Of a DNA stretch of 64,000 nucleotides, positions 32,746 through 46,713 are shown one piece after another. The first letter of the stretch is position 1, and each line of letters begins with the position of its first letter. The translations under genes and the position numbers were made by a program. This stretch comes from an uncultured Sulfurovum sp. GTDB lineage: Bacteria > Campylobacterota > Campylobacteria > Campylobacterales > Sulfurovaceae. The notes under the pieces were generated by a model. That model made no database searches and was not told where the DNA came from. It worked only from the letters and a program-made list of their open reading frames with translations. The stretch covers positions 69,800 to 133,799 of the forward strand of contig CACVAP010000011.1 in the NCBI GenBank assembly GCA_902727895.1. The letters run 5' to 3'.

Positions 32746-32861
32746 AGCTTATCATTCATCCTTACATCTCTTTCAAAAAGATACTCAAGGCACTACTAAT
32801 AGTGTTAAATAATTAGACTCCAAAGTAATTAAAAAAAGATAAAGTATTATTTATTTCTACT

Positions 32862-35687
32862 CTATCTAACTTGAAACACAACTTCATTAGTAAATTCAGC
32901 CCATCTGTTGTCTTCATCTGTTAAGTAAATAGCTTTTGTTGCGCCCATTCCCAAAGTATTGAGTTGAGTACTATTTACACCTTGAGCCAATAAATACTCT
33001 TTAACACTATTTGCGCGTCTATGAGAGAGTTCCATATTGTATTCTTCCGACCCTTTTTTATCAGTATGTCCAATAATATCTATTTTTAATTCTTTATACT
33101 GATTAAGTACTTTTGATAATTTATTTAACTTCTCTTCTTCATTTCCTGTTATAGCATAAGAATTACTTTCAAAATAGATATTTTTCAATACATTTTGAAC
33201 TACTTGACTGACACTCTTTTTACTTTTTTTGTTATAAACTAAATGCTTTTTAACTTCTTCCTTTTCAGGCATTTCTATGTAAACCTTACCCATATCCATA
33301 AGACTCTCTTCTTCTCCCTCTTTTATGAAAAATTGATGCCGTGCAACCCCTGTGTATTCTCTCTCTTTTGTAAAGGTAATGTTAAATGCTCCTACCCCCA
33401 CATGATTAATTATAAACTCACCTTTATCATTAGTAAAACTGGTGCTTCTCTCTCCAGTCTCAGCATTAAAAATTTTGAAAGCTTTATGGACTAAAGGTTT
33501 CCTTGTCTCTTGCTCATAAAATGAACCTTTTATAGAATAAAAGTTCTCAACAGCCACATCCATAATAGCACCAGTTTTATAATTGGTTAAAAACTTCTGT
33601 TTTGAATCTCTTAAGTCCACCCCAAAATCAAGAGCTGATTCATCAATGAAAAGTTCTCTTTCAGAATAATCACTTACGTCAATGGCATAAGTATCATAAA
33701 CAAATTCATCTACTTCATGGTAGCCATTTAGTCCTAAAGAGGTTTCTAATTTATCATCATTGTCCACAATGACAAAACTAGAGTTTATAGGTGCTGTCAA
33801 AGTTACTGTTGTTCCTGCGAATACAAAGCCTGTTGCCATTTGCAAACCAATAGTCTCATTCTTTTGTGCGTTGCTTTTAATATCACTTAAAAGGTAAGAA
33901 GCATCTATTCTAAACTTCTCATTATTCATATCGGCTCTTACATTATAGTTTGTTGCTTGTTTATTACTTTCAAACTGTAAGTCACTGTTGACCCCATAAC
34001 GACCTTCTGCATTTCGTCGTAAATTAAGTTGATGTTTTTGATCACTCAAATAGCTCACATACCGTGCATTATAACGATTACCAAATCTATAATCTATAGT
34101 CGCATAGATTTGAGTATCATCAGTTTGTCCTTCTTTTGTTATTTGATCGAGGTTCAACTCTGTTGACAATGCTCCAAAGTTTTTACGGAGTACCACACCA
34201 TATTTATCTTCGTTTTCATCATCTCTATCATAAGATGAAGCTGAAACACCCATAGAAACACCCATACCGACTTGACTGTACAAACTACCTCTATAAAGAG
34301 TAGAAGCTTGACTTTGACTATTCCCTAAAATTGCATATTTAGCATCTATCTCTTCATAACCCAAGTTTATCGTGACTTCTCCTAGGTTTGTTCTATAGTC
34401 TAGCCCTTTTTTATATCCAACAGCATCTTCACTTTTACTACTTACCACATACGGATTGAACAATCCAAAGTTTGTACCAATAAGCAGTTCAGCACTTCCT
34501 GCTAAATACTCCTCACCTGTCTGAAAACCTGTCTCAACTGTTACAGAATCTAAGAGTCCATACTCAACATAAGCCGAAGCCACTCTTCGTTGTTTCTTAT
34601 AAATCCATTCATTCTCTAGTTGTTCACTCTCTATCCCAACACCTGCTCCATATCGTGCTAAGCCTTTTTTGAGTACTTCAGAATAAGAGAAGTCATTAAA
34701 CTCAATGGTTTCTATTTTTCCTCCATTTTCAATGACTACCAATCGTACACGATTCAGTCCACTTGGTAAATTTAAGTCAAAAAGGTTGTGTGTTCCTCCT
34801 GCTAAATTTAAAGCATTACGGTAACGGTCATTAACATAAATCTCTACCCTACTTCGGTTTTGTATGAAAAACTCATGAGAGTTAATACGGGTAATATTTT
34901 GGGTATAACCCGAACCAATATTCCAAATTTTCTCTACCCCAACCCCTAAAGCATTTACAAATGACATTCGGTCATGTGCTGGTAAACTAATGTCTCCTGC
35001 TTGGTAACGTAACTGATTTTCCACATCATCAGTTACAACTCTAAAACGTCCTTTGGTGACTTCGTTCTCTTCATCATTGTATTGTAGTCGTCCCTCTAGT
35101 ACAAAACCGTGTACATTTAAATGAACATCTGAAGAGAGGTTAAATGCATTTTTCTCAAAACCGTTTGAACCATTCTTATTATATTGTTGGTTAAGATAAA
35201 AGTTCATGCCTCCTGAATAGTTTGTAGGAAGAACTGAACCATTAACATCTCTTGCTCGTCCAGACCTGTTAAAGTTCACAAGAGAAGCTTTCTTAAGATT
35301 TACAGGTAAAAAAACTTTAAGTAAAATATTTTTACGATCATACTCTGTTTTTATACCCATTTGTTCCAATGCTTTTAGAGGAGTAAAACCATTACTATCA
35401 ATCTGAACCACATATTGTGATTGAAACTCTTCTTTCATAAGTGAGCGAAGATACTTCACCGTATCTTCTGTCAATAAAATGTTTTCCTTATTATCAATCT
35501 TAACAAAGACTTCATCTTGTAGAATATCATTCACTTTTAAAGGTAAATAAAACTCTTTACTTTGAGCTTTGTTTTTAGACATTTTTGCAAAAAGCTTCTC
35601 TTCGAGTATTTTTCTTTTTTCTGCCATGCTCATTTGGGCATGTAAAACATTGATGGTAATAAGTGAAAGGAGTATAATATTTTTCAT
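32862..35687 (-). CDS. Chaperone-usher outer-membrane usher fused to C-terminal OmpA domain
   Basis: A 941-residue protein with signal peptide (to about residue 17). Residues about 170-720 are an outer-membrane usher barrel with a plug region: FIQNRSRVEIYVNDRYRNAL, LFDLNLPSGLNRVRLVVIEN and FNDFSYSEVLKKGLARYGAG fit the usher family that exports and assembles pilins. About 725-810 is a carboxypeptidase-regulatory-like beta domain (KGSFYEQETRKPL, TNDKGEFIINHVGVGAF). Residues 836-941 are an OmpA/MotB peptidoglycan-binding domain (NIYFESNSYAITGNEEEKL, IDIIGHTDKKGSEEYN, LSHRRANSVKEYLLAQGV). Known ushers I can recall lack the last domain. It is the last gene of the pilus operon and starts inside the TAATG junction with the tip-like subunit. 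Confidence 0.85.
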   Translation of the reverse strand: MKNIILLSLITINVLHAQMSMAEKRKILEEKLFAKMSKNKAQSKEFYLPLKVNDILQDEVFVKIDNKENILLTEDTVKYLRSLMKEEFQSQYVVQIDSNGFTPLKALEQMGIKTEYDRKNILLKVFLPVNLKKASLVNFNRSGRARDVNGSVLPTNYSGGMNFYLNQQYNKNGSNGFEKNAFNLSSDVHLNVHGFVLEGRLQYNDEENEVTKGRFRVVTDDVENQLRYQAGDISLPAHDRMSFVNALGVGVEKIWNIGSGYTQNITRINSHEFFIQNRSRVEIYVNDRYRNALNLAGGTHNLFDLNLPSGLNRVRLVVIENGGKIETIEFNDFSYSEVLKKGLARYGAGVGIESEQLENEWIYKKQRRVASAYVEYGLLDSVTVETGFQTGEEYLAGSAELLIGTNFGLFNPYVVSSKSEDAVGYKKGLDYRTNLGEVTINLGYEEIDAKYAILGNSQSQASTLYRGSLYSQVGMGVSMGVSASSYDRDDENEDKYGVVLRKNFGALSTELNLDQITKEGQTDDTQIYATIDYRFGNRYNARYVSYLSDQKHQLNLRRNAEGRYGVNSDLQFESNKQATNYNVRADMNNEKFRIDASYLLSDIKSNAQKNETIGLQMATGFVFAGTTVTLTAPINSSFVIVDNDDKLETSLGLNGYHEVDEFVYDTYAIDVSDYSERELFIDESALDFGVDLRDSKQKFLTNYKTGAIMDVAVENFYSIKGSFYEQETRKPLVHKAFKIFNAETGERSTSFTNDKGEFIINHVGVGAFNITFTKEREYTGVARHQFFIKEGEEESLMDMGKVYIEMPEKEEVKKHLVYNKKSKKSVSQVVQNVLKNIYFESNSYAITGNEEEKLNKLSKVLNQYKELKIDIIGHTDKKGSEEYNMELSHRRANSVKEYLLAQGVNSTQLNTLGMGATKAIYLTDEDNRWAEFTNEVVFQVR

Positions 35688-36610
35688 TAGTTAGCACTCA
35701 CCGTTACATTGATGACAGCTTTATACTCTCCTGCAATAAGTGAACCTGTTAAACTCTCAGTTATAAACCTAAATACTCCTACCTTTGTACCATTCTTCTT
35801 ACCTGTCATAATGGTAAAGTATTCATTATTATTAATACTCTGTTCTGTAGCACCAATTTTAGTATAATAGTAACTCATATCTATCTTGTAATTATTATCA
35901 ACTTGACTAATCAAATCAGAGGTCTCAAACTTTATTTGAAAATTTCCATTGGTATTATTTTTAACAAAAACATCTTTCACTTGTTCATTGCTTGTGTTTA
36001 ATGTAAAGTTTCCATAATCTACCAAACCATCTTTAAAAACTTTACCCGTTTTATAAGTAGCCAAGTTTTCAAATCCTACCATACTCACTTGTTCTACATT
36101 TCCACTAGCACTAAGCGTAGCTGTCGGAGAGTCACTCGCATTACCTAAATTAACACTTATATTTTTAGAAAGAGCATAGCTCCCTGCTGTTTGAGTATCA
36201 GCAAGAGAATTTACTTTGATGCGAACATAACCTACAATACTAGTACCATCACGTCCACCAGCAGCAGCAGACAAAAGTGTAAAGGATTGATTTTCAGTTA
36301 TTGCACTCTCTACATCATTAACAACATAATAAAAAGCTGTACTTATAACTTCATTTACACTATTACGTAAAGTAGAAATATTAGCCATAGTCATTTTAAC
36401 TTCATCCATAGAATCAGAAAAAACATAAATAGGAATATCTACAACTTTTAAATTTGTATCAGCTACTTTCATGCTTGTAGAAAAGTTAACATTCATAGCA
36501 TCCACACGAAGAGTATCTCCTGAACAAGCTGATTGAGCAGTTGTCCCAACTTCCAAACAAGCCCCAAAAAGGTTAAGAGAAAGTAAAGTAAGTAGTAGTA
36601 ATTTTTTCAT
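35687..36610 (-). CDS. Two-domain pilus subunit, probable tip adhesin
   Basis: A 307-residue secreted protein. I start at 36610 because AAGGA lies 7 nt upstream and the signal peptide MKKLLLLTLLSLNLFGAC follows; the frame extends 12 codons further. Two pilin-like beta domains are visible: about 20-165 and 166-307. Each has paired alternating strands, a central FVKxNxNG-type turn (DVFVKNNTNGNFQIKF in the second) and an AGxYxxxINVTV closing strand (AGEYKAVINVTVSAN at the end, AGSYALSKNISVNLG in the first). The two-domain design is that of CS1-type tip proteins. The stop overlaps the usher ATG, so the two are made together. Ligand unknown. Confidence 0.72.
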   Translation of the reverse strand: MKKLLLLTLLSLNLFGACLEVGTTAQSACSGDTLRVDAMNVNFSTSMKVADTNLKVVDIPIYVFSDSMDEVKMTMANISTLRNSVNEVISTAFYYVVNDVESAITENQSFTLLSAAAGGRDGTSIVGYVRIKVNSLADTQTAGSYALSKNISVNLGNASDSPTATLSASGNVEQVSMVGFENLATYKTGKVFKDGLVDYGNFTLNTSNEQVKDVFVKNNTNGNFQIKFETSDLISQVDNNYKIDMSYYYTKIGATEQSINNNEYFTIMTGKKNGTKVGVFRFITESLTGSLIAGEYKAVINVTVSAN

Positions 36611-36634
36611 TTTTTTCCTTTTTAGCATTTGTAG

Positions 36635-36651
36635 GTTCGGTAACACCGAAC
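36635..36651. repeat. GTAGG-headed hairpin inside the pilus operon
   Basis: GTTCGGT (36635-36641) pairs with ACCGAAC (36645-36651) with a 3-nt loop, preceded on the plus strand by GTAG (36631-36634). It lies between the chaperone stop and the tip-subunit start, where it could lower downstream transcription or protect upstream mRNA. Confidence 0.6.
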
Positions 36652-36664
36652 ATGAAATTAAAAC

Positions 36665-37381
36665 CTACTTCTTTTCTAATCTCATGCTCACTATTTTGTC
36701 TACAGGAACAGAAGTAATATTTTTTAAATGAAATGTGTTTGTTTTTCCTGCTAGGACTCTTCTGAATTCTGCTTCTTTTAAATCTTCTAAGGTTAGTTTA
36801 TATTCATTTTTTCCAGTGCTTATCAAGAAATGATAATCCTTTGGGTTTGGAACAACACTTGCTGTACCACTATTTGAAATGATTAATGTAACTTCATTCA
36901 TGGACTTATTTATAGAGTTTATTTTTAATTTAGGTTTAGAATTTTCTTCTTTTACAAATAAGAGACCCTCATAAGAAAATCTCATTTTAATTTGTGCATT
37001 AATTTTTCCTTTATTTTCATTATTTTCATTATCACTAACATCAATATCTAGCTCTTTTGCAATAACACGATAAACTTCTTCTGTTTCAGGTAATTTTTGT
37101 CCCATATATCGAACACGTATTGATTTTGTTTCACCAGCATCCAATACAAATTTAGTAGGATAAGCCTCAACCATTTTAGTCTCTTCTCTTTCTTCTTTAT
37201 TCTTAACTGTGCTTAAAACTTTTAAAATAGAAAAAGTTGAAGCAACGGGTTCCTTAGAAGGATTAGTAATTTTAAAAATTACATTTCTTGTTCGTTTACT
37301 GTCTAATGTTTGTATCAAAGGGGATAAACTTACAGCGAATAGTAAATTTGACATCATAAATAGTGAAAATAATACTTTCAT
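36665..37381 (-). CDS. PapD-like periplasmic pilus chaperone
   Basis: A 238-residue protein with signal peptide MKVLFSLFMMSNLLFA. It has the two immunoglobulin-like domains of pilus chaperones: domain 1 with NVIFKITNPSKEPVAST and FVLDAGETKSIRVRYMGQ before EVYRVIAKELDID, domain 2 with LKINSINKSMNEVTLIISNSG and the closing KNITSVPVDKIVSMRLEKK. It would cap the exposed groove of pilin subunits in the periplasm by donor-strand complementation and deliver them to the usher. The short loop between the F1 and G1 strands would suit the alternate (CS1-type) chaperones. Sits between the pilins and the tip subunit. Confidence 0.82.
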   Translation of the reverse strand: MKVLFSLFMMSNLLFAVSLSPLIQTLDSKRTRNVIFKITNPSKEPVASTFSILKVLSTVKNKEEREETKMVEAYPTKFVLDAGETKSIRVRYMGQKLPETEEVYRVIAKELDIDVSDNENNENKGKINAQIKMRFSYEGLLFVKEENSKPKLKINSINKSMNEVTLIISNSGTASVVPNPKDYHFLISTGKNEYKLTLEDLKEAEFRRVLAGKTNTFHLKNITSVPVDKIVSMRLEKK

Positions 37382-37472
37382 AAAAATCCTTTTTATTTTT
37401 TATAAATTTTTAATTAAAAACTTATAAAAAATAAAACTATAGAGATATCTAAAAAGTAAATATCCCTATAAA

Positions 37473-38024
37473 TTAATTTACTGATACCGTTACATTTAAA
37501 GCAGTGGTGTAATCATCAGCCATATATATAGTATTTAGTATGTTTGCACGTGGCTTTATTTCAAATGTACCTATTGAAGCTTGTCCATCATTTACACCTG
37601 TTACTAAATCAACATATTCTGTATTACCAAGTTCAGGATCATATCTAGAACCATTAATATAGTATTTTATAGCTATGCATGGTTTACTACTAGGATTAGA
37701 AACTGGACAAATATATCCATCTTTATTACTAGGATCTTCTAATTTAATACTAACTGTATTGTTAGTATTGGTTTTTACATAAATGTTTCGAGAAACATTA
37801 GTAAATTCACCTTGTCCTCCAACATCACCCAAATCTATGTTACTAGATACACTATCTTTGAATGTTCCTACTCCTGAAACTGCTTCAGTAAGAGGGTCAG
37901 AAACTTGTTCAAAACTAACAATTGCATCTACTAGAACCACACCTGTAACAACTATTTGATTATCAGCTGAAAAAAGTGGAGTCATAGGAAGTAACATGGA
38001 AAGTACTATTAAAGTTTTTTTCAT
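37473..38024 (-). CDS. CS1-type pilin subunit (second)
   Basis: A 183-residue exported subunit with signal peptide ending at SADN. The mature start QIVVTGVVLVDAIVSFEQV parallels the N-terminal donor strand of CS1/CFA pilins, with RNIYVKTNTNNTVSIKLEDP in the middle and ADDYTTALNVTVSVN at the end. It has one Cys pair (GYICPVSNPSSKPCIAIKYY), likely a disulfide absent from the first pilin. It follows that pilin by 33 nt and is 91 nt before the chaperone. Could be a minor subunit or a second major pilin. Confidence 0.75.
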   Translation of the reverse strand: MKKTLIVLSMLLPMTPLFSADNQIVVTGVVLVDAIVSFEQVSDPLTEAVSGVGTFKDSVSSNIDLGDVGGQGEFTNVSRNIYVKTNTNNTVSIKLEDPSNKDGYICPVSNPSSKPCIAIKYYINGSRYDPELGNTEYVDLVTGVNDGQASIGTFEIKPRANILNTIYMADDYTTALNVTVSVN

Positions 38025-38057
38025 AATTACTCCTTTAAGTATCTATTTAAAGAAGCA

Positions 38058-38624
38058 TTAGTTTACTGCAATAGTCACGTTAACCGTTTTTGTATAATCA
38101 CCAGCAACTTGTAAGTCAGCAATAGCAGCAGGAGTAATTAAAAATCCAGCAGCATCTGCATTTACTTTTGCTGTACCAGCATTTGTAGACCCTGCAGCTA
38201 AAACAGTAAATGGAGTATTCGCTGCTATAGCTGTACCAGCATAAGTATAGGCAAGTTCAATCTTTTCATCAGCATCAGCAGTAGCAGCATGTGGAGCTGT
38301 ATTTACCATAGCACCAACATCATCAAGTGCCATTCTTACTCCACCATTAGCATTTGATTTTACAAACACATCTCTATGAATCGCTGTTAGGTCAGTACCA
38401 GCCGTAGTCGGACCAAACGCAATAGCATTTAATGCATTGTCTACAAAAGTACCTACTGTATTAGCTCCGATACCCGTACCTCCCAAAGTTGAACCTCCAA
38501 CACTAGCAAAACCAACGTAACCATCAACATTTACAGTAGCTGTTACAACAATCTTATTTGCATCAGCCTGAACCCCAGTACTCATTAAAGCAGCAATGGC
38601 TGCAATTGATAATAATTTTTTCAT
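38058..38624 (-). CDS. CS1-type major pilin
   Basis: An Ala/Thr-rich 188-residue subunit. The frame extends 28 codons upstream, but AAAGGA sits 7 nt before the ATG at 38624, giving MKKLLSIAAIAALMSTGVQA and a mature start DANKIVVTATVNVDGYVGF. The pattern matches CS1/CFA major pilins: N-terminal VTATVxxD strand, then RDVFVKSNANGGVRMALDD, FTVLAAGS, and a final GDYTKTVNVTIAVN. No cysteines. First gene of the operon and best candidate for the shaft. A -10-like TATAGT lies near 38675 on the minus strand. Confidence 0.78.
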   Translation of the reverse strand: MKKLLSIAAIAALMSTGVQADANKIVVTATVNVDGYVGFASVGGSTLGGTGIGANTVGTFVDNALNAIAFGPTTAGTDLTAIHRDVFVKSNANGGVRMALDDVGAMVNTAPHAATADADEKIELAYTYAGTAIAANTPFTVLAAGSTNAGTAKVNADAAGFLITPAAIADLQVAGDYTKTVNVTIAVN

Positions 38625-39156
38625 CATAAATCCTTTAAAATAAAAGGCATAAAATGCTATGATGTATATGCACTTTATACTATAAGGTGTAGCAAACTTC
38701 CTCGCCAAAGTTTAGTTTGCAAACTCTTTAAACATTGCTCTTTAGATATTAATAATTATTAACATTTAGGAGCAATCTTCCCTTGTGAAATAACATCCAC
38801 GTAACAAAATTATAAACGAAGAAAGTCATTAAAAAGTTAGATTTTTATTTTATTTTTAAAAACTACAATTAATAGCTAGAAGCTAGTTTATAATAAAAAA
38901 TAAATATGTTTTTTATTATTAAAAATTAGTTTTTTATCATTATTTACAAAGTCTTTTTTCTCTAAAAATTATCTAATAATCTAAATATTAAAATTAATTT
39001 AATTTAATATATTAATTTTAATTAATTTCTCAAAAGAGCCTTATCTTGGTGTCTACACTAATGTTACACTAAGACTCTCTAACTTTACACTAAAATATCA
39101 ACATCTTTTTTTAACGATATAGTTATACTGAATTAATCAACTAAAAGGAAGATAAA
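38625..39156. promoter_or_regulatory. Divergent regulatory region between pilus operon and orphan regulator
   Basis: About 530 nt, very A+T-rich in the centre (38870-39030), with no gene. It contains the pilin promoter near 38675 (minus strand) and the boxes at 39053-39093 on the regulator side. Long enough for binding at both promoters. Confidence 0.6.
39053..39093 (-). promoter_or_regulatory. Array of TTAGTGTAA boxes upstream of the orphan regulator
   Basis: On the plus strand: CTACACTAA (39053-39061), TTACACTAA (39064-39072) and TTACACTAA (39085-39093). The first two are 11 bp apart and the third 21 bp further, so all are on one DNA face. The core is identical over 19 bp to the site at 6932-6950. 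It ends 63 nt before the regulator's ATG, which suggests autoregulation. Confidence 0.75.
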
Positions 39157-39831
39157 ATGGAAATCTTAAAATTTAATAAACTATTTTTTTCAGGAAAAGA
39201 AAGTGAAATATTAAATTTTCAAACTTATTTTGAAGAAATAATCTTACTTGAAAATAACCAAGAAATTCTAACTTTTCCTTTTAGCACAACTAAAATAATC
39301 TTTATGAACTGTGATGAAATAAGTAACAATTGTATTCAAGTTATTAAGGAAATTCGTCAATATGACAGAAAAAGTATTATTATAATAATGAGTGAAAAAA
39401 AAGATATAGATACTTTGTTTAATGTTCTACCTCTTCATCTATCTGGATATATACAAAAACCTTTTAAAAAAAATAATCTACAAAAATTATTGGAAAACAT
39501 TGTAAAGGATTTGTCTTATTTAGACAATGATAAAAATATACAACTTAAAAACAACTATAGTTTGAACCTTAATACCTTAACACTACTTAATGAAAAGCAT
39601 AATATTATTAAACTAACAAAGAAGGAAAGAAAGCTTATTCAGATTCTTATAAACAAGAAAAACAATTATGTAACATCTGAAACTCTTGAATATACTATAT
39701 GGGAAGAGGACTCACTAAAACAAGATTGTAACTTACGACTAAAACACCTCATCTATTGCCTAAGAAAAAAATTACCTGATGCAAGCATTATTAATACTTA
39801 TAACATAGGCTATAAGTTTGTTACTAATTAA
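39157..39831 (+). CDS. Orphan OmpR-type response regulator with degenerate receiver
   Basis: A 224-residue protein. Residues 1-120 form a CheY-like receiver: beta strands KIIFMN (46-51), SIIIIMSE (73-80) and GYIQKPF (97-103) with the conserved Lys101-Pro102. But the acidic pair normally after strand 1 is missing (LKFNKLFFSG) and the phosphorylated Asp position reads Asn51, so ordinary phosphorelay seems lost. Residues 125-224 are an OmpR/PhoB winged helix (KLTKKERKLIQILINKK, LRLKHLIYCLRKKLPDASI, NTYNIGYKFV). No histidine kinase gene is near. AAGGAAG precedes the ATG. It is divergent from the pilus operon and flanked by TTAGTGTAA pairs, which are its likely targets. Confidence 0.85.
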   Translation: MEILKFNKLFFSGKESEILNFQTYFEEIILLENNQEILTFPFSTTKIIFMNCDEISNNCIQVIKEIRQYDRKSIIIIMSEKKDIDTLFNVLPLHLSGYIQKPFKKNNLQKLLENIVKDLSYLDNDKNIQLKNNYSLNLNTLTLLNEKHNIIKLTKKERKLIQILINKKNNYVTSETLEYTIWEEDSLKQDCNLRLKHLIYCLRKKLPDASIINTYNIGYKFVTN

Positions 39832-39857
39832 GCAAAGTACGTATTTAGTAACTAAAG

Positions 39858-39877
39858 TTAGTGTATAGTTAGTGTAA
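39858..39877 (+). promoter_or_regulatory. TTAGTGTAA pair downstream of regulator, upstream of HTH gene
   Basis: TTAGTGTAT (39858-39866) and TTAGTGTAA (39869-39877), again 11 bp apart. It lies 78 nt before the ATG at 39955, in the opposite orientation to the site in front of the regulator. Confidence 0.7.
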
Positions 39878-39954
39878 AAGAAGAAAGAACCACTATTTTA
39901 ACTAATTTAAACAATAAAAAAGATTATAATCATCTCTATCTAATGGAGAGGTAC

Positions 39955-40725
39955 ATGGAAAACTTTAAAAAACTAAACTATATATTAAATTCTTACATGA
40001 CTGCGACTGAAGTCACACATGCCTTTGGATTTAAAAGTGAAACAATGATTTCTAAAATGAGAAAGGGTGAAAATCGTATCACTCAATTACACATTGATGG
40101 CTTAGAAAAGTACTTCAATATTCCTCCTGAACTTTTTAATATTACTATAAAAAATGAAGATGAAATTGATTTAATCATTAAAACATATCAACTTCAAAAA
40201 CAAAAAGATCAAAAAAAATTATTAGAACAGACTCAAGACTTAAGTCCTTATTGTAAAATTGATAAAAATATTTTTCCTGAAAACCCTAAACTATTTGAAA
40301 AGATAAAAGGCACTTGGTATGGCTATGTTTACCCTTCCAACCCTGCTTCTTCAGAACATGGTATTTGGGAAGTCAAAACAATTATTGGGGAAGACTATTC
40401 CGTGATTGATGAGCCTTGGGGAAATAAGGGTTATCTGAAACTTGGAAAAAATGAAAGTCTTATTATCAAAGAGTCTTATGACCATGAAGACTTAACCACC
40501 ATTCGTTTTTCTAACCGTCAAGTTCCTTCTGGACATTTTCGTTTTGTAGTCATCTCTAACCAAAACCATACCCTCAATGAAATGGTAAACTTTGGATTCT
40601 TCTCACGTAAACGCTATCCTTTAGACGAAGCCAAAGAAATTTTAGGAGACCGAGAAAGTAAACAACTAAAACTCGATGTAGAATTTAATGAACGTCTTAT
40701 TCAAAGGGCAATTGTTCCTCAGTAA
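39955..40725 (+). CDS. HTH-domain protein with unknown C-terminal domain
   Basis: A 256-residue protein. I start at ATG 39955, since GGAGAGG lies just before it (an upstream ATG at 39943 overlaps that site). Residues 1-62 look like a helix-turn-helix (MTATEVTHAFGFKSETMISK and LHIDGLEKYFNIPPELF). A helical linker (about 75-95) leads to a beta-rich domain (about 115-250) with GTWYGYVYPSNPASSEHGIW and FSRKRYPLDEAKEILGD that I cannot assign. It could be a DNA-binding sensor. A TTAGTGTAA pair lies upstream, suggesting it belongs to the regulon of the preceding gene. It converges on the beta-barrel gene with 1 nt between. Confidence 0.7.
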   Translation: MENFKKLNYILNSYMTATEVTHAFGFKSETMISKMRKGENRITQLHIDGLEKYFNIPPELFNITIKNEDEIDLIIKTYQLQKQKDQKKLLEQTQDLSPYCKIDKNIFPENPKLFEKIKGTWYGYVYPSNPASSEHGIWEVKTIIGEDYSVIDEPWGNKGYLKLGKNESLIIKESYDHEDLTTIRFSNRQVPSGHFRFVVISNQNHTLNEMVNFGFFSRKRYPLDEAKEILGDRESKQLKLDVEFNERLIQRAIVPQ

Positions 40726-40726
40726 G

Positions 40727-41554
40727 CTAAAACCTCCAAGCTACCCCAACGTAAGTAGTATAAGATTCCTCTTTTAAGGAAGCAGAAGGTAAAGTATCTC
40801 CAACACGAGAGCTCACAGTTAAGCTGTCGAATTTTTGTTTCCATGCATCTGTTCGTAAATGTAAAGAAAGATTTTTGGAATACTCATATTTGTAAGTAAG
40901 AGCAATTTTTAAACCCAATGCATTTACACTGTCATCTACAAATGAATCTTGAAATTGACCATTAATAGACTCAGACATATCTACTTTTGCCCTACTGTAA
41001 AGCGTACCTACATTAGCAACAAGCATTCCTTTTTCAAAAACTTTTCTTTGGTAAGCTAGAGAAAATGCTAAACCATCTGTCTGATATTTAAAATAACTAA
41101 CATAATGAAAAAAGGAATCATATGTGTCAGAAGCATTTAAACTTGCATATCTATAAATACCATTAAGTCCCCATGACTCTTTTTCATTTTCTAACAAAGT
41201 ATAATTAACATATAAACCGAACTCTTCTTTGTCAATTCTTGCCTGATCATTTAAAGGAGACTGAGTTGTCACCACATACATATTACTCTGAACTTCATCC
41301 ACCAAAAACTTTCCATAAGTTCCTAGTAACCATCTATCATAAACATAAGAAAAACCTAGCGTAGCTTCTAATACATCATAATCAATAGCAGAATCCATCT
41401 CAGAAGAGTGCAACTCAATAAGATATGAACTATATCCTAAGTCAGCATGAATACCCATCCCTTCTACCTTAGAACTTAAGTCTTTAAAGAAACGGTCTTC
41501 GTTAATTTCAGCATTTAACCCTAATGATAATAAACACAATAATAAAAATTTCAT
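40727..41554 (-). CDS. Probable outer-membrane beta-barrel protein
   Basis: A 275-residue protein with signal peptide (MKFLLLCLLSLGLNA) and then alternating amphipathic strands to a C-terminal aromatic end (YTTYVGVAWRF), as expected for a 12- to 14-strand outer-membrane barrel. No specific family recognised. It is 15 nt after the caspase-like lipoprotein gene on the same strand, so the two are probably made together at the outer membrane. Confidence 0.78.
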   Translation of the reverse strand: MKFLLLCLLSLGLNAEINEDRFFKDLSSKVEGMGIHADLGYSSYLIELHSSEMDSAIDYDVLEATLGFSYVYDRWLLGTYGKFLVDEVQSNMYVVTTQSPLNDQARIDKEEFGLYVNYTLLENEKESWGLNGIYRYASLNASDTYDSFFHYVSYFKYQTDGLAFSLAYQRKVFEKGMLVANVGTLYSRAKVDMSESINGQFQDSFVDDSVNALGLKIALTYKYEYSKNLSLHLRTDAWKQKFDSLTVSSRVGDTLPSASLKEESYTTYVGVAWRF

Positions 41555-41569
41555 TTTTTCTCTCTTTTC

Positions 41570-42460
41570 TTAAATAGGTGGGCTAAAGGCTATTGGTGCT
41601 TTTTTAGGAACAAGCCAAATATTTTTTTCCAATCCCATTATCTCAGAGCTAACCTGTTGACGATTACTCTCTTCTAAAATACTAACACGAACCCGTCTAA
41701 ACACTTCTCCAATGGGAATCTCTTCATCATCTAAATATTTCATAAGTGCATAAGTGTAAGCACCGTGTCCATCATCATGAAGACTATAATCTTTTGCTCT
41801 TTGATTACGCTCAGTGGCATAAGAAACTAAAGTTGAAGGAGGTAATTTATAGCTATACTTTTCTTTCTCCACAAAAACTTGAACATCTTCTTTAACCCCA
41901 TCATCATAACGAATGGTAGTACCCCTAAACCCTTCTAAACTAAAGTTACCTCTAAAGTTATTTTTATTTTGAAGCTTCTCATTTTCTACAATATAATGCT
42001 CTTGATAATCTCTACATACATCCAGAGCAATAATGCTATGTCGTGCTTTAACCTTTTTTAAAAAGTCATAAAACTTAAAAATACTGACTAATGTTGGTCG
42101 ATCTTTATCGGTCATCATTAAAAACTGTTCTGAACTATTTTTATGAAGCGTGTTTCCATGCCCAGCAAAGTAAATAAATACAAGGGTATTGTTCGCTTCA
42201 ATGTTACCTTTTAACCCCTCTAAGGTTTCGTTCAATTGATCTAAAGTACTATCAAGAAGCAAAGTAACATCAAAACCTATATTTTCTAATGTCTCTTTGA
42301 TCCCTATTGCGTCACTTATAGGGTTCTTTAACGTATTTCCTCTATAGTCTTGGTTACCAATCACCAAAGCAACTCTATTAATGGGTACTTTCTGGACTTT
42401 TGGCTCAATATAACACCCTGTCAACACAATAATAAACAAAAACATCACTATTTGTCTCAT
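41570..42460 (-). CDS. Caspase-like (peptidase C14) lipoprotein
   Basis: A 296-residue protein with lipobox LTGC (Cys16), hence membrane-anchored. The caspase fold is seen in NRVALVIGNQDY, VFIYFAGHGN with catalytic His101 and SIIALDVCRDY with catalytic Cys149; the second motif differs from the common LDACR by Val. A caspase-like basic pocket (GFRGTT, LVSYATERNQ, HGAYTYALMKYL) follows. Bacterial members cleave after basic residues in some cases; target here unknown. Divergent with the small lipoprotein at 42521, 60 nt away. The ribosome-binding site contains a run of seven G (42468-42474). Confidence 0.86.
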   Translation of the reverse strand: MRQIVMFLFIIVLTGCYIEPKVQKVPINRVALVIGNQDYRGNTLKNPISDAIGIKETLENIGFDVTLLLDSTLDQLNETLEGLKGNIEANNTLVFIYFAGHGNTLHKNSSEQFLMMTDKDRPTLVSIFKFYDFLKKVKARHSIIALDVCRDYQEHYIVENEKLQNKNNFRGNFSLEGFRGTTIRYDDGVKEDVQVFVEKEKYSYKLPPSTLVSYATERNQRAKDYSLHDDGHGAYTYALMKYLDDEEIPIGEVFRRVRVSILEESNRQQVSSEIMGLEKNIWLVPKKAPIAFSPPI

Positions 42461-42467
42461 TTAACTG

Positions 42468-42474
42468 CCCCCCC
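42468..42474 (-). promoter_or_regulatory. G7 run forming the Shine-Dalgarno of the caspase-like gene
   Basis: Minus strand reads GAGGGGGGG then 7 nt and ATG. Slippage in the run would change the Shine-Dalgarno spacing without altering the protein. Confidence 0.6.
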
Positions 42475-42520
42475 TCAAAAATTTTGGTAGAATTGTAACA
42501 TGTTATCAAAGGAGTTACAC

Positions 42521-43024
42521 TTGAAATATCTATCAATTTTTACGGGGATATCCCTAATGCTTTACACCACGGCTTGTACAACAACTAAACCTATTCAAGT
42601 TGCTTCAACCAAACCTATTAAACTTGCTTCAAATGAACCTACCCCAATAGGAGGGGGTAACCCTGAGGTCATTAATGACTGCTTTGGACTTAAGAAAGCT
42701 GAGAAGGAACACTGTTTTAACCACTTCTTTCCAAAGCACAACCTCTTAATCCATCCAAATCATGGAAAAATAATTAGATTAGCAGGACGAGGAGACAGTG
42801 TTGAAAGAAGAGATCTTAACCTTACTAGCGATGATGAGTTAGTACTACTCTATCTTGATACCACCCATGTTAAACTACCACTTCACTCAAATGTAGAAGC
42901 CAGTCTATTCTCTTACCACAAGAATACTGTAGTACTTAACATTGATGCAAAAGAAATAGAAGATAAAATTATTTTAACCGATAACGATGGAACTATTATT
43001 CTTGAATATACGGTGAACCGATAA
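42521..43024 (+). CDS. Small lipoprotein with GGNPEV motif, unknown function
   Basis: I use the TTG at 42521 (167 residues) since AAAGGAG lies 6 nt upstream; an ATG at 42500 in frame sits before that site. The signal ends in a lipobox-like YTTAC, so the Cys is lipidated. After a threonine/proline-rich stretch with repeated TKPI comes GGGNPEVINDCFGLKKAEKE, sharing GGNPEV with the small secreted protein at 45262. The C-terminal part is a small beta domain. It is 1-nt overlapped with the next gene (TAATG). Confidence 0.68.
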   Translation: MKYLSIFTGISLMLYTTACTTTKPIQVASTKPIKLASNEPTPIGGGNPEVINDCFGLKKAEKEHCFNHFFPKHNLLIHPNHGKIIRLAGRGDSVERRDLNLTSDDELVLLYLDTTHVKLPLHSNVEASLFSYHKNTVVLNIDAKEIEDKIILTDNDGTIILEYTVNR

Positions 43025-45252
43025 TGTTTCATTACATTGTTCCCGTACTCTTTAGCCTCCTATTTATTGGATGTGGTAGTGATGCAAGTCAACATGAACC
43101 ACGTGAAGAGAAGAGTTTATATTTTGTAGACTCTCCTACCAATGGTATTGACTATGCTTGTGGCGAACGTTTAGGTGTTACTAAAACCTACACCTTAAAT
43201 GGCTTAAGTAAACATGGTGCATTTAAATGTGTCTACTCCCCCATTAACTTTTCTTTAGGAAGCTTACATTTAGGCAGCATCGACAGTGTGGTAGATGGTC
43301 AAACCATCTACCCTCAAGATTTAGTCGAAAGTTTTAACGGTGACTTTAACAATAAAGAAGTACTTAAAATAGCCATACTTTTACAATCTCTAAATGACAA
43401 CAACAGTTCTGAATATATTAATATACCTCAAAGTACTAAAGACAACATCACCCTAACAACGTTAAAAGACCTAAGCATTGAAGAATTAAACCAAGCCATT
43501 GTTAAAATGGGAATAACGCCTGTATCTGCTGATGAAGCCCGTGTGCATCTCATTTTAAATTCACCCAATGTACAAAGTGGGAAACCAAGCATTGAAACCT
43601 TTGAAGAAGAGATTTCAAACGAATTAACCGTGGGAAATACCATTGGTGAACTAAACATCAACAAAGGAGATGGAGCACTTATCTATCCTTTTCTTTTAGA
43701 AGGTGAGGGCAAAGAGCATTTTATACTCAACAACAATGGAAAGCTTATTTTAACCCAAAGTTTTACCACAGCTCAAACACTTGAACTAAATGTCACCGTT
43801 AGCAATGAATTTGGATACAGTACAGCCCCTTTAACTATTCATGTCAAAGATTCAGGGAAAATAGGAAAAGCCCAAATCGGACGACTTAAAGAGGCGAACG
43901 TTAAGATTTTTAAACTGCTTGACAATGGCACAAAAGAGTTACTCTCCACAGAAAAAACAAACAGCACAGGCAGTCTAAACCTACTTGGAAATTTTGACTT
44001 ACATACAGAATTACTTGAAGACCATAGTTTTTACATCTATGAGGTCAATGAAGGGTTTGATGTAGATGTTGATGACGATGGAAAAGAAGATAGTAGCCAA
44101 ACTAAAAATCATGGAACAATGCACCTTATCTCTAAAGGGATTTGGATTAAAAATGCAAATCAAAAAATACGGGTTACCCCTCTTTCTGAAATGCTTTACA
44201 CGTACTTAGAACGTGATAACTTTGAGAACATAGAAGAGAGTTTAACAAAGTATTCAGAAATACTCCTCAAAGCCTCGTTAGATACAGACACTACTGTAAA
44301 CGCTAAAGACATCATGCTCTTTAACCCTTTACAAGACAAAGCCCTACTCTATGAGACTTTAACATACAACAATACCTACGCTAACATAGTCCATCAACTA
44401 CGAACAGGGAATTCTACTTATAAAAGTAGTATTTTCAATGCTTTTGTGGTTGAGTCTTTTCAAGCCAATGCCATTGAAATTGTCGGTTCTAGTATTTATA
44501 CTATTGATATGATGGGGACAGGTGAATTTAATATTTATGATTTGGAGACTAAAGAGAAGATAGGAGGCTTAAAACTTCCTAATGCTCCTTTTGAGGAAGA
44601 TACGCATGTGCTTTATGTTAATACCCTTACTTCATTTATAAATATTTTCAGCTTGCAAGATTGGTCTTATGCAATAAGTATAATCAATCAAGCTAAACCT
44701 ATTCTAGTAGGTGAACCTAGTATAAAAACTGCTCTACTAAGTGGTAGTTTTCAACATACAGCGATAGGGTACAGTCAAGCAATACACCTTTTTGGTCAAG
44801 AGAAACAAAACCACCAATATGATGTTTTAAATAATGGGAATACAAAAAGTATTAAATTTTTTAATGTTGATAACGATAACCAGTTCTATCAATTTGAATT
44901 TGACTCTAAACTAACAAGTATTGATAGTCTGTGGGTTAAAAGTGAGTATCTATATGTCATAGGTGACAATAAAATTCATATTTTTACTGAAACAAATACA
45001 GAAGCTACTTTAGATGGAGTTTATACTTCACGTAATGTTAGAGGAAATATTATTGGGATTGAAAAAGATACAATGTATGTTTTAAACGAAAGCTTACTAA
45101 CACTTTATAATATTAGCTCTTCTTTAAATCCAAAATTTATAGAAGAGTTTAGCGTACCATTTACATATAAACTTGGTATTAAAACCAATAACAATTACAT
45201 TACTACTGGTTCTCAAATTATTGATATAGAGGCTTTAAGAGCCTCCATCTAA
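43024..45252 (+). CDS. Large cadherin-like lipoprotein
   Basis: A 742-residue lipoprotein (lipobox LFIGC, Cys17). After an N-terminal unassigned part with a disulfide-capable Cys pair, about residues 200-275 form a cadherin-like repeat (VGNTIGELNINKGDGALIYP, then LELNVTVSNEFGYSTAPL and IHVKD). A calcium-loop-like stretch VDVDDDGKEDSS follows near 353. From about 475 to the end, strand-rich repeats such as SSIYTIDMMGTGEFNIYDLE and SEYLYVIGDNKIHIF look like a beta propeller. Probably a surface-exposed adhesin or binding protein partnered with the preceding lipoprotein, with which it overlaps by 1 nt. Confidence 0.75.
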   Translation: MFHYIVPVLFSLLFIGCGSDASQHEPREEKSLYFVDSPTNGIDYACGERLGVTKTYTLNGLSKHGAFKCVYSPINFSLGSLHLGSIDSVVDGQTIYPQDLVESFNGDFNNKEVLKIAILLQSLNDNNSSEYINIPQSTKDNITLTTLKDLSIEELNQAIVKMGITPVSADEARVHLILNSPNVQSGKPSIETFEEEISNELTVGNTIGELNINKGDGALIYPFLLEGEGKEHFILNNNGKLILTQSFTTAQTLELNVTVSNEFGYSTAPLTIHVKDSGKIGKAQIGRLKEANVKIFKLLDNGTKELLSTEKTNSTGSLNLLGNFDLHTELLEDHSFYIYEVNEGFDVDVDDDGKEDSSQTKNHGTMHLISKGIWIKNANQKIRVTPLSEMLYTYLERDNFENIEESLTKYSEILLKASLDTDTTVNAKDIMLFNPLQDKALLYETLTYNNTYANIVHQLRTGNSTYKSSIFNAFVVESFQANAIEIVGSSIYTIDMMGTGEFNIYDLETKEKIGGLKLPNAPFEEDTHVLYVNTLTSFINIFSLQDWSYAISIINQAKPILVGEPSIKTALLSGSFQHTAIGYSQAIHLFGQEKQNHQYDVLNNGNTKSIKFFNVDNDNQFYQFEFDSKLTSIDSLWVKSEYLYVIGDNKIHIFTETNTEATLDGVYTSRNVRGNIIGIEKDTMYVLNESLLTLYNISSSLNPKFIEEFSVPFTYKLGIKTNNNYITTGSQIIDIEALRASI

Positions 45253-45261
45253 GAAATTATT

Positions 45262-45444
45262 TTAAATAATATCATTTGAACTGCGACAAAGCCCAAGAGC
45301 TCTCATATAAGGATCACAATTCCCAAAAACTGTCGTAGGGTTACCCTTCTTAACAAAAACCTCAGGATTACCACCCAAGTCCGAAGCTGTAGCAACAGCA
45401 CCTAACACCAAAACAACACTCATAAATTTCATAAATCTTTTCAT
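45262..45444 (-). CDS. Small secreted peptide with GGNPEV motif
   Basis: A 60-residue precursor with a clear signal peptide (about 1-20, MKRFMKFMSVVLVLGAVATA). The mature peptide of some 40 residues starts SDLGGNPEVFVKKGNP and has two cysteines (Cys43 and Cys53) that could form a disulfide. GGNPEV recurs in the lipoprotein at 42521. It is convergent with the large lipoprotein (9 nt apart); AAAGGA precedes its ATG. Function unknown. Confidence 0.65.
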   Translation of the reverse strand: MKRFMKFMSVVLVLGAVATASDLGGNPEVFVKKGNPTTVFGNCDPYMRALGLCRSSNDII

Positions 45445-45848
45445 AATTTATCCTTTAATGACATAGACATTTAACTCTTATAGTCACTTAACAAAGAATT
45501 AACATCTAAAATGATAAAATCATGAGTGTTACCTCATATACACCTTTCCTAATGTTGCCAGACATTTAATGTGCTATATGGTGGTAATAGAGATATCACT
45601 CATCATCTACTTAACTGTTTTTAATAAAACAATACACTAACTTTAATCCACTTTATTTTTTAATAATCTCTCATTATGCTACCTCCTATATATTCAATTA
45701 TAGTAGTATATAAATAAATTACTTAATTTTAAATTAAAACTTACATAACTTATTTATTTTTTGTCATAATTATTATTTTTTAATTATTTAAGAAATATTT
45801 TATATTATAGTGCTAGAATGAAGATAGATAAAATTTTAAGGAGATTCC
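45445..45848. other. Intergenic region, promoters only
   Basis: About 400 nt, A+T-rich. It holds the promoter region of the small secreted peptide and, at 45801-45810, TATATTATAG as the likely -10 region for the leader ORF and HicB genes. A single half-box (TACACTAA, 45633-45640) is not repeated at 11 bp. Nothing else supported. Confidence 0.5.
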
Positions 45849-45938
45849 ATGGATGCCATCAAATTAAAAAGCACAAACATTCTCAACCGACTTAGTAGTT
45901 TAAAATACTACTACATAAGGATGTCTCAATGCCCCTAA
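45849..45938 (+). CDS. 29-residue leader ORF ahead of the unknown-HicB pair
   Basis: ATG at 45849 follows a strong AAGGAGA and opens a frame of 29 codons (MDAIKLKSTN...MSQCP) ending at TAA 45936-45938. The stop overlaps the start of the next gene (ATG 45929). The middle of the ORF forms a hairpin (45893-45913) just before the next gene's AAGGA. The pattern suggests a leader peptide coupled to translation of the next gene; it could also be a real small protein. Confidence 0.5.
   Translation: MDAIKLKSTNILNRLSSLKYYYIRMSQCP
45893..45913 (+). promoter_or_regulatory. Hairpin inside the leader ORF
   Basis: TAGTAGT (45893-45899) pairs with ACTACTA (45907-45913) over a 7-nt loop, 3 nt before the AAGG of the next gene. 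Ribosomes reading the leader would open it. Confidence 0.5.
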
Positions 45939-46174
45939 GTTATGATTTAAAATTTTTTCAAAAAATTCTAAAAAAAGAGTTAAACAAAAATAAAGAGCAC
46001 GTTTCAAAAATAAAAATAGAGGATATGGGAAGCTATATCACTGTCTTTATCATATGTTACAAGCAAACTTCAATATTTAGAGTTTCAAAGGAAAATGTTG
46101 TGGAGATGAATAACAATACTAAAGAAAATTATTCTTTAAAATACCTTGTTAAAAATATAAGATGGGATACTTAA
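45929..46174 (+). CDS. Unknown 81-residue protein paired with HicB
   Basis: A small basic protein (MPLSYDLKFFQKILKKELNK at the start, then SYITVFIICYKQTSIFRVSK and YLVKNIRWD). I cannot assign it; it lacks the GSHH-type His of HicA toxins. AAGGA lies 8 nt before the ATG. Its position ahead of a HicB-type gene makes it a candidate toxin or partner, but nothing in the sequence proves that. Confidence 0.55.
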   Translation: MPLSYDLKFFQKILKKELNKNKEHVSKIKIEDMGSYITVFIICYKQTSIFRVSKENVVEMNNNTKENYSLKYLVKNIRWDT

Positions 46175-46239
46175 TTCCATGTTATATTTCAAACAATATC
46201 CATGGGTCTCTTTAGTATTACTTGAAGGAGAATACTGCA

Positions 46240-46671
46240 ATGCTACATGAAAAAATACTTGTTTCTTTTGTTTATGAAGAGGGCTATAATTTTGTTTTAA
46301 TAGTTCCAGATGTAGGCAATGAACTAATGGTTAGAGCTAAAACACAATCAGAAGTAATACGTAAAGCAATTCGCGCCTTACGTGAAAACTATACTGACAA
46401 TCTTATGGAGTTATCTCCCAGCCCTATTGATATCTATACTGAAGAATATAAAAATAGTAAAGGCATACCTAAACATGCCATTCTATATCCACTACCTGTT
46501 AAAATTGGAAAAAGGAAAAAAGTATTTAAACGCTTTACCTCCTCAATGGATGAAAAACTATTAGAAGAAATTGAAGCCTTTACTAAAAGTAAAAAAATAA
46601 AAAAGAGTGATTTCTTTGCGAAAGCAAGTAGAGAATATATTCAAGGTTATGATAGGCAGAATATAAAATAG
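46240..46671 (+). CDS. HicB-family antitoxin-like protein
   Basis: A 143-residue protein; ATG 46240 is chosen as AAGGAGAA lies 6-8 nt upstream (a TTG in frame lies 6 codons before). The N-terminal half has the HicB fold (LVSFVYEEGYNFVLIVPDVG, then ELMVRAKTQSEVIRKAIRAL). The C-terminal 50 residues are a ribbon-helix-helix (KRFTSSMDEKLLEEIEAF, KKSDFFAKASREYIQGY) for DNA binding. In classic systems HicB neutralises HicA; no HicA is present here, only the 81-residue protein upstream. A terminator follows. Confidence 0.78.
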   Translation: MLHEKILVSFVYEEGYNFVLIVPDVGNELMVRAKTQSEVIRKAIRALRENYTDNLMELSPSPIDIYTEEYKNSKGIPKHAILYPLPVKIGKRKKVFKRFTSSMDEKLLEEIEAFTKSKKIKKSDFFAKASREYIQGYDRQNIK

Positions 46672-46685
46672 TAAATAGATAATAA

Positions 46686-46713
46686 AAAGGCTTAGTCCTA
46701 CGACTATGCCTTT
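46686..46713. terminator. Bidirectional hairpin after the HicB-like gene
   Basis: AAAGGCTTAGTC (46686-46697) pairs with GACTATGCCTTT (46702-46713), one mismatch, ending in the stop of the convergent gene at 46712. Confidence 0.65.

Follow-up and report, generated by a model that had tools for sequence, protein, structure and literature searches.

The closest described relatives of the locus presented here are the archaic (sigma) and alternative (alpha) chaperone-usher pili, whose non-classical chaperones are marked by an invariant proline and a subunit-anchoring arginine (PMC4654587). For the chaperone EcpB, a cysteine pair in the second domain has been described, and archaic systems have been listed solely for alpha- to delta-proteobacteria, Cyanobacteria and Deinococcus-Thermus (PMC4654587). 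For Campylobacterota, no description of a chaperone-usher pilus was found in the library searched, in agreement with an earlier note on this DNA, and the locus would extend these pili to that phylum. The Campylobacterota host named in the same note agrees with the relatives of the locus, which are labelled as Campylobacteraceae MAGs.

In the window, which is the whole stretch of 64,000 nucleotides that was analysed, five open reading frames on the minus strand encode two pilins, a chaperone, a two-domain subunit and an usher, all in one direction as had been proposed. The operon and its flanking features are listed here.

38058..38624, minus strand: pilin 1, the first gene and the probable major pilin (open reading frame; ATG at 38624, stop at 38058)
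37473..38024, minus strand: pilin 2 (open reading frame; profile match to pilin 1 and to domain 2 of the two-domain subunit)
37382..37472, minus strand: intercistronic RNA structure in the gap between pilins and chaperone, two strong neighbouring hairpins (folding against shuffles)
36665..37381, minus strand: periplasmic chaperone of the non-classical type (PapD_N; alignment; profiles and tree)
35687..36610, minus strand: two-domain tip-like subunit (likely ATG at 36610, stop at 35687; donor motif, profiles and a low-confidence model)
32862..35687, minus strand: outer-membrane usher of 941 aa with N-domain, plug/barrel, C-terminal sandwich, linker and OmpA domain (profile, tblastn)
32907..33176, minus strand: OmpA-type peptidoglycan-binding domain of the usher, residues 838-927 (PF00691, 82 bits)
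38634..39156, no strand: A+T-rich region upstream of the operon, presumably with the promoter (sequence)
39157..39831, plus strand: divergent OmpR-type response regulator gene (Trans_reg_C and Response_reg matches)

The genes of the tip-like subunit and the usher overlap by one base, and the other intergenic gaps measure 33-91 nt. The gene order is indeed unlike that of classical CS1 operons. The earlier five-gene reading stands, although the OmpA domain at the C-terminus of the usher had been missed. Upstream of the operon (38634..39156), promoter-like matches are not commoner than in shuffled sequence. The response regulator is a possible, unproven regulator of the pilus operon, and its gene was not found beside the operon in the neighbourhoods of the relatives (L008, L009). 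Judged from these genes, the locus is probably (a probability of roughly 0.78) a complete chaperone-usher pilus operon of a divergent lineage related to the archaic systems, with an usher tethered to peptidoglycan via its OmpA domain; the same overall reading takes the operon to be transferable as a complete unit.

In translation, pilin 1 has a signal peptide, the N-terminal donor-strand motif KIVVTATVNVDGYVGF and the C-terminal strand NVTIAVN, and pilin 2 has the donor-strand motif QIVVTGVVLVDAIVSF and the C-terminal strand NVTVSVN. The pilin starts and the closing strands NVT(I/V)(A/S)(V/A)N, which had been said to agree among the subunits, are thus present, and the homology of the subunits was above chance in profile comparison. 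Pilin 1, pilin 2 and domain 2 of the subunit are homologous (96.5%, 96.6% and 93.8%; E 9e-10 to 2e-7), with domain 2 matching both pilins (93.8% and 96.6%, E 2e-7 and 7e-10), and domain 1 matches pilin 1 more weakly (81%, E 1e-5). No Pfam family over its cut-off was found for the pilins or the two-domain subunit, and PDB sequence searches with their profiles gave nothing relevant.

Between its two domains, at residues 165-180, the subunit repeats the pilin donor motif of 16 residues. No other position in the protein scores as high, and in two orthologues the score exceeds the mean of all 16-mers by 4.6 and 4.9 standard deviations. Domain 1 has no N-terminal donor extension and contains an invariant cysteine pair, C18-C29. 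Because a pilin donor strand lies between its domains, the subunit looks like a tandem pilin that caps the fibre, and the simplest reading is that it is a fusion of two pilins, with domain 1 presumably completed in cis and the protein confined to the tip. The sequence LFGAC resembles a lipobox; a lipoprotein is less likely here than a disulfide because C18 is accompanied by the invariant C29. The AlphaFold model of the subunit is weak (mean pLDDT 54). Its best matches among solved structures are CfaB-CfaB, CooA, CsuA/B and CfaE (Z 11.8 to 10.4, the first three tied); these matches speak for a pilin fold but do not discriminate between the families.

In the chaperone, PapD_N is matched with 28.8 bits, over the Pfam cut-off of 23. 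P75 and R89 align with the non-classical proline and arginine (Pro59 and Arg89 of CsuC); in this alignment, an arginine of the classical FimC also falls in the column of R89. The cysteine pair of the alternative chaperones was seen in EcpB, in plasmid homologues of EcpB and in the chaperone of the CS1 control, and no cysteine was found past residue 120 in the chaperones of the window and of the two relatives with the complete operon (G520 and G515). When the chaperone profile, built from an alignment without FimC, was compared with the PDB, the best match was CfaA (E 0.001), with CsuC at 0.07.

The usher and chaperone were further compared with reference loci, comprising five ECP-type loci and one true CS1-type locus (alternative), six SCPU-type loci (archaic), seven archaic-related loci and FimC/FimD. 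In hhalign, the usher matched the archaic-related profile, whose group includes annotated ushers, at E 2.5e-42, the archaic profile at 1.6e-17 and the alternative (ECP) profile at 0.004, and the chaperone matched the same profiles at 8e-19, 3e-10 and 1.7e-4, respectively. With the CS1 member added to the alternative profile, the values were 2.2e-4 for the usher and 2.1e-5 for the chaperone. The best trees of ushers, of chaperones and of both joined placed the operon with the archaic-related group, outside the alternative family, and the separation from that family received 100/100 support in the usher and concatenation trees. The tree stem of the window operon is long, and the AU test did not reject a union with the alternative family (p 0.13 and 0.09).

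At E 1, the CS1 family model Fimbrial_CS1 (PF04449) matched neither of the pilins nor the two-domain subunit, and a search of genome G000 with the same model gave nothing over the cut-off. CooC_C (PF15976) had no match in the window usher, and the TcfC E-set match (PF16967) reached 21.0 bits, with a cut-off of 29.4. In contrast, all three models were found in the CS1 operon used as control (PF04449 in the pilin, 55 bits; TcfC, 74; CooC_C, 37), and EcpC and the Providencia usher pass the cut-offs of both TcfC and CooC_C. The SCPU domain (PF05229) gave no match in the subunits, and pilin 2 has a weak profile link to archaic-related tips (E 2e-5). Membership of the CS1/CFA family, which the earlier CS1-like reading had suggested, is therefore not supported at family level, since PF04449 is not matched, the best profiles are archaic-related and the chaperone cysteine pair is absent. 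What is left of the resemblance is the weak TcfC match and the low-confidence fold match to CfaB/CooA, tied with that to the archaic CsuA/B. Both non-classical families have pilin ends of the donor-strand type seen here, and these ends were the source of the CS1 impression. Taken together, the non-classical proline and arginine, the missing cysteine pair, the profiles and trees and the failure of the CS1 models indicate that the locus is archaic-related and divergent rather than CS1. Separately, a TcfC-type usher on a plasmid of Sphingomonas daechungensis (L062 3957-6369) is split in the annotation into two pieces, and its profile scores fall between those of the alternative and the archaic-related ushers.

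The alternative explanation that survives best, although unlikely, is that the locus encodes a genuine alternative (alpha, CS1/CFA-class) pilus, by now too divergent for the CS1 models to recognise. The 21-bit TcfC match would fit such an origin, but an equally weak match (19.7 bits) is given by the archaic-like usher of Leptolyngbya, and the match of the window usher to the archaic-related profile is tens of orders stronger. The PDB match of the chaperone profile to CfaA ahead of CsuC, the structural resemblance of the subunit model to CfaB/CooA and the AU values of 0.09-0.13 also fit, yet the chaperone is without the cysteine pair, the gene order is not that of CS1, and PF04449, CooC_C and an above-cut-off TcfC are all absent.

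Under the preferred archaic-related reading, the interest of the system lies chiefly in the usher, which carries a predicted peptidoglycan-binding domain. The OmpA domain matches PF00691 with E 4.1e-23 in the window, with 42 bits in the usher of G520, and is also present in that of G515; the ligand residues D876 and R891 are invariant in these three full-length copies. The Asp/Arg pair of OmpA domains binds diaminopimelate. Its position after the C-terminal sandwich predicts that the domain lies on the periplasmic side. With an identity of 37% against 56-59% for the usher, the OmpA domain is the faster-diverging part, and the GHTD motif of the window is replaced by GYPD in G520 and G515; therefore, peptidoglycan binding may be weak in the relatives. 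No usher-OmpA fusion was found among the reference ushers compared or, outside the genus, among the plasmid matches listed and in the sampled genomes of the phylum. The latter were searched with a barrel-only usher profile, since the whole-usher profile drew mostly ordinary OmpA proteins. One plasmid record covering 80% of the usher query ends before the OmpA part. A literature search gave no description of such a fusion, and we could not find this arrangement in any described chaperone-usher system. To our knowledge, the export pore of chaperone-usher pili has no cell-wall anchor of its own.

The remainder of the usher is divergent. The usher barrel model PF00577 does not match it and does match relatives aligned along 756 columns, and tblastn links it to the annotated usher of Leptolyngbya (4e-30). 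A PDB sequence search with the usher profile gave no relevant match. The AlphaFold model of the usher (pLDDT 35) was made with three sequences only, and no claim about the barrel rests on it.

Chaperone-usher loci are almost absent from the phylum. The usher family of the window was found in 4 of the 175 genomes of its own family, all 4 in one genus, and a profile search of genome contigs with the genus alignment matched only the three same-genus Campylobacteraceae MAGs. All five genes are present in G520 and G515, in the order seen in the window; in the third relative, G516, the operon is cut by the contig end and the usher is incomplete. Its recurrence within the genus, complete in two further MAGs and truncated by a contig end in a third, shows that the operon is not a chance pattern. 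Usher identity among the same-genus relatives is 57-60%. Between the window and G515, residues 19-805 of the usher have a dN of 0.35 with saturated dS (3.8, NG86), indicating that the frame is maintained under selection. No relatives of the locus were found in the viral contigs searched. Elsewhere in the order, PF00577 ushers occur in 4 of the 298 sampled genomes (L003, L004, L055-L058), two of which (G018 and G037) have a pilin, chaperone and usher of the archaic type without an OmpA domain.

Within the genus, the five-gene set is found at two different chromosomal sites. A mltB-like gene adjoins a DUF6394 gene in G367, which is without the operon, and in G520 and G515; in the window, the two genes are separated by about 14 kb of DNA that includes the operon. 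Conversely, alaS and a YkuD gene are direct neighbours in G367 and in the genome to which the window belongs, and in G520 and G515 they flank just the five pilus genes. These reciprocal empty sites show that the operon occupies two loci within the genus, each lineage lacking it at the locus used by the other. As the alaS-ykuD gap holds the five genes alone, the gene set looks self-sufficient. No recombinase was identified.

The island of about 14 kb in the window (32746-46711), from the mltB-like to the DUF6394 gene, also contains the response regulator, a helix-turn-helix protein, a caspase-like protein and lipoprotein-like genes. The caspase-fold (Peptidase_C14) protein, at 41570-42460, has a lipoprotein-like signal, and beside it lies a 275-aa protein (40727-41554) with no Pfam match that resembles a small outer-membrane barrel. 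A 742-aa protein at 43024-45252 has a lipoprotein-like start and no Pfam match, and a small protein at 46222-46671 resembles, judged by eye, a HicB-type antitoxin. At each of the two sites, a neighbour of the operon is a peptidoglycan enzyme, a YkuD L,D-transpeptidase in the relatives (L008 3021-12458) and a lytic transglycosylase in the window, which is possibly a coincidence.

Conservation extends to the 91-nt gap between pilin 2 and the chaperone. In the window, it folds into two hairpins with an MFE of -28.5 kcal/mol (z -8.0, 0 of 200 shuffles), and in three relatives the same gap holds one long hairpin (z -5.1 to -5.8), differing in sequence from the window. A strong hairpin between pilins and chaperone is thus present in all four operon copies and is likely an attenuator or mRNA stabiliser that sets an excess of pilin over chaperone and usher.

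It is improbable that the locus is a chaperone-usher locus without a discrete pilus, either decaying or making a capsule-like surface coat. A rare and patchy distribution, known from draft genomes only, would suit such a locus, but the five frames are intact in the window and two relatives, dN is low, and gene order and hairpins are conserved. Slightly less probable still is a canonical archaic (SCPU) pilus like Csu, in which an ordinary usher has acquired an irrelevant OmpA tail: the chaperone and usher relationships and the archaic-type operons in some other members of the order point towards it, but the subunits fail the SCPU model, the tip gene lies before the usher (after it in the archaic loci compared), and both relatives with complete ushers retain the OmpA tail, its D and R being invariant.

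For the preferred archaic-related pilus, whose named members are MAGs, a route of assembly can be inferred from the sequence in all its functional steps. In the periplasm, the chaperone would take up both pilins as well as the two-domain subunit, lending a strand to each. The usher would then polymerise the subunits by donor-strand exchange and export a thin fibre. The two-domain subunit, because it has no free N-terminal donor strand, would both start and cap the fibre, and the repeat of the donor motif suggests that its own internal strand completes domain 1 in cis. The hairpin would keep the output of pilins above that of chaperone and usher. The OmpA domain may fix the usher platform to peptidoglycan, helping it to resist pull on the fibre or keeping it in position. 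A further-reaching proposal is made only tentatively, at somewhat less than even odds: the lineage could form a separate clade, neither SCPU-archaic nor alternative, that combines an usher covalently joined to a peptidoglycan anchor with a tandem-pilin cap already completed in cis, and in which the anchored outer-membrane platform bears load that in other ushers falls on the membrane only. With a natural usher-OmpA fusion, how the pore withstands pulling force becomes testable by removing one domain.

In comparison with known systems, the archaic (sigma) pili, such as Csu of Acinetobacter and CupE of Pseudomonas, likewise have one or more pilins, a chaperone of the non-classical Pro/Arg type, an usher and a two-domain tip, with clear similarity in usher and chaperone profiles. 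The window differs from them in that its subunits match no SCPU model, its tip gene precedes the usher and its usher has an OmpA domain. The closest ushers and chaperones found are those of the archaic-related operons of Leptolyngbya sp. BL0902, Niveispirillum, Indioceanicola, Qipengyuania, Novosphingobium and Photobacterium (L013, L014, L048, L063, L064, L049). The Leptolyngbya operon matches the order of the window, with two small secreted proteins, chaperone and usher. Unlike the window, these operons are without the OmpA domain and have the tip gene, if present, after the usher, and identity is only about 20%. The alternative (alpha) pili, including CS1, CFA/I and the E. coli common pilus, share donor-strand-type pilins, the weak TcfC E-set match and model similarity to CfaB/CooA; they are set apart by PF04449, CooC_C, the chaperone cysteine pair, another gene order and their separate position in the best trees. 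Among the NCBIfam matches, PorE of type IX secretion and TpgA of trimeric autotransporters are cases in which an OmpA-type domain serves an export or adhesion machine, whereas in the window this domain is fused in one chain with the usher of a chaperone-usher system.
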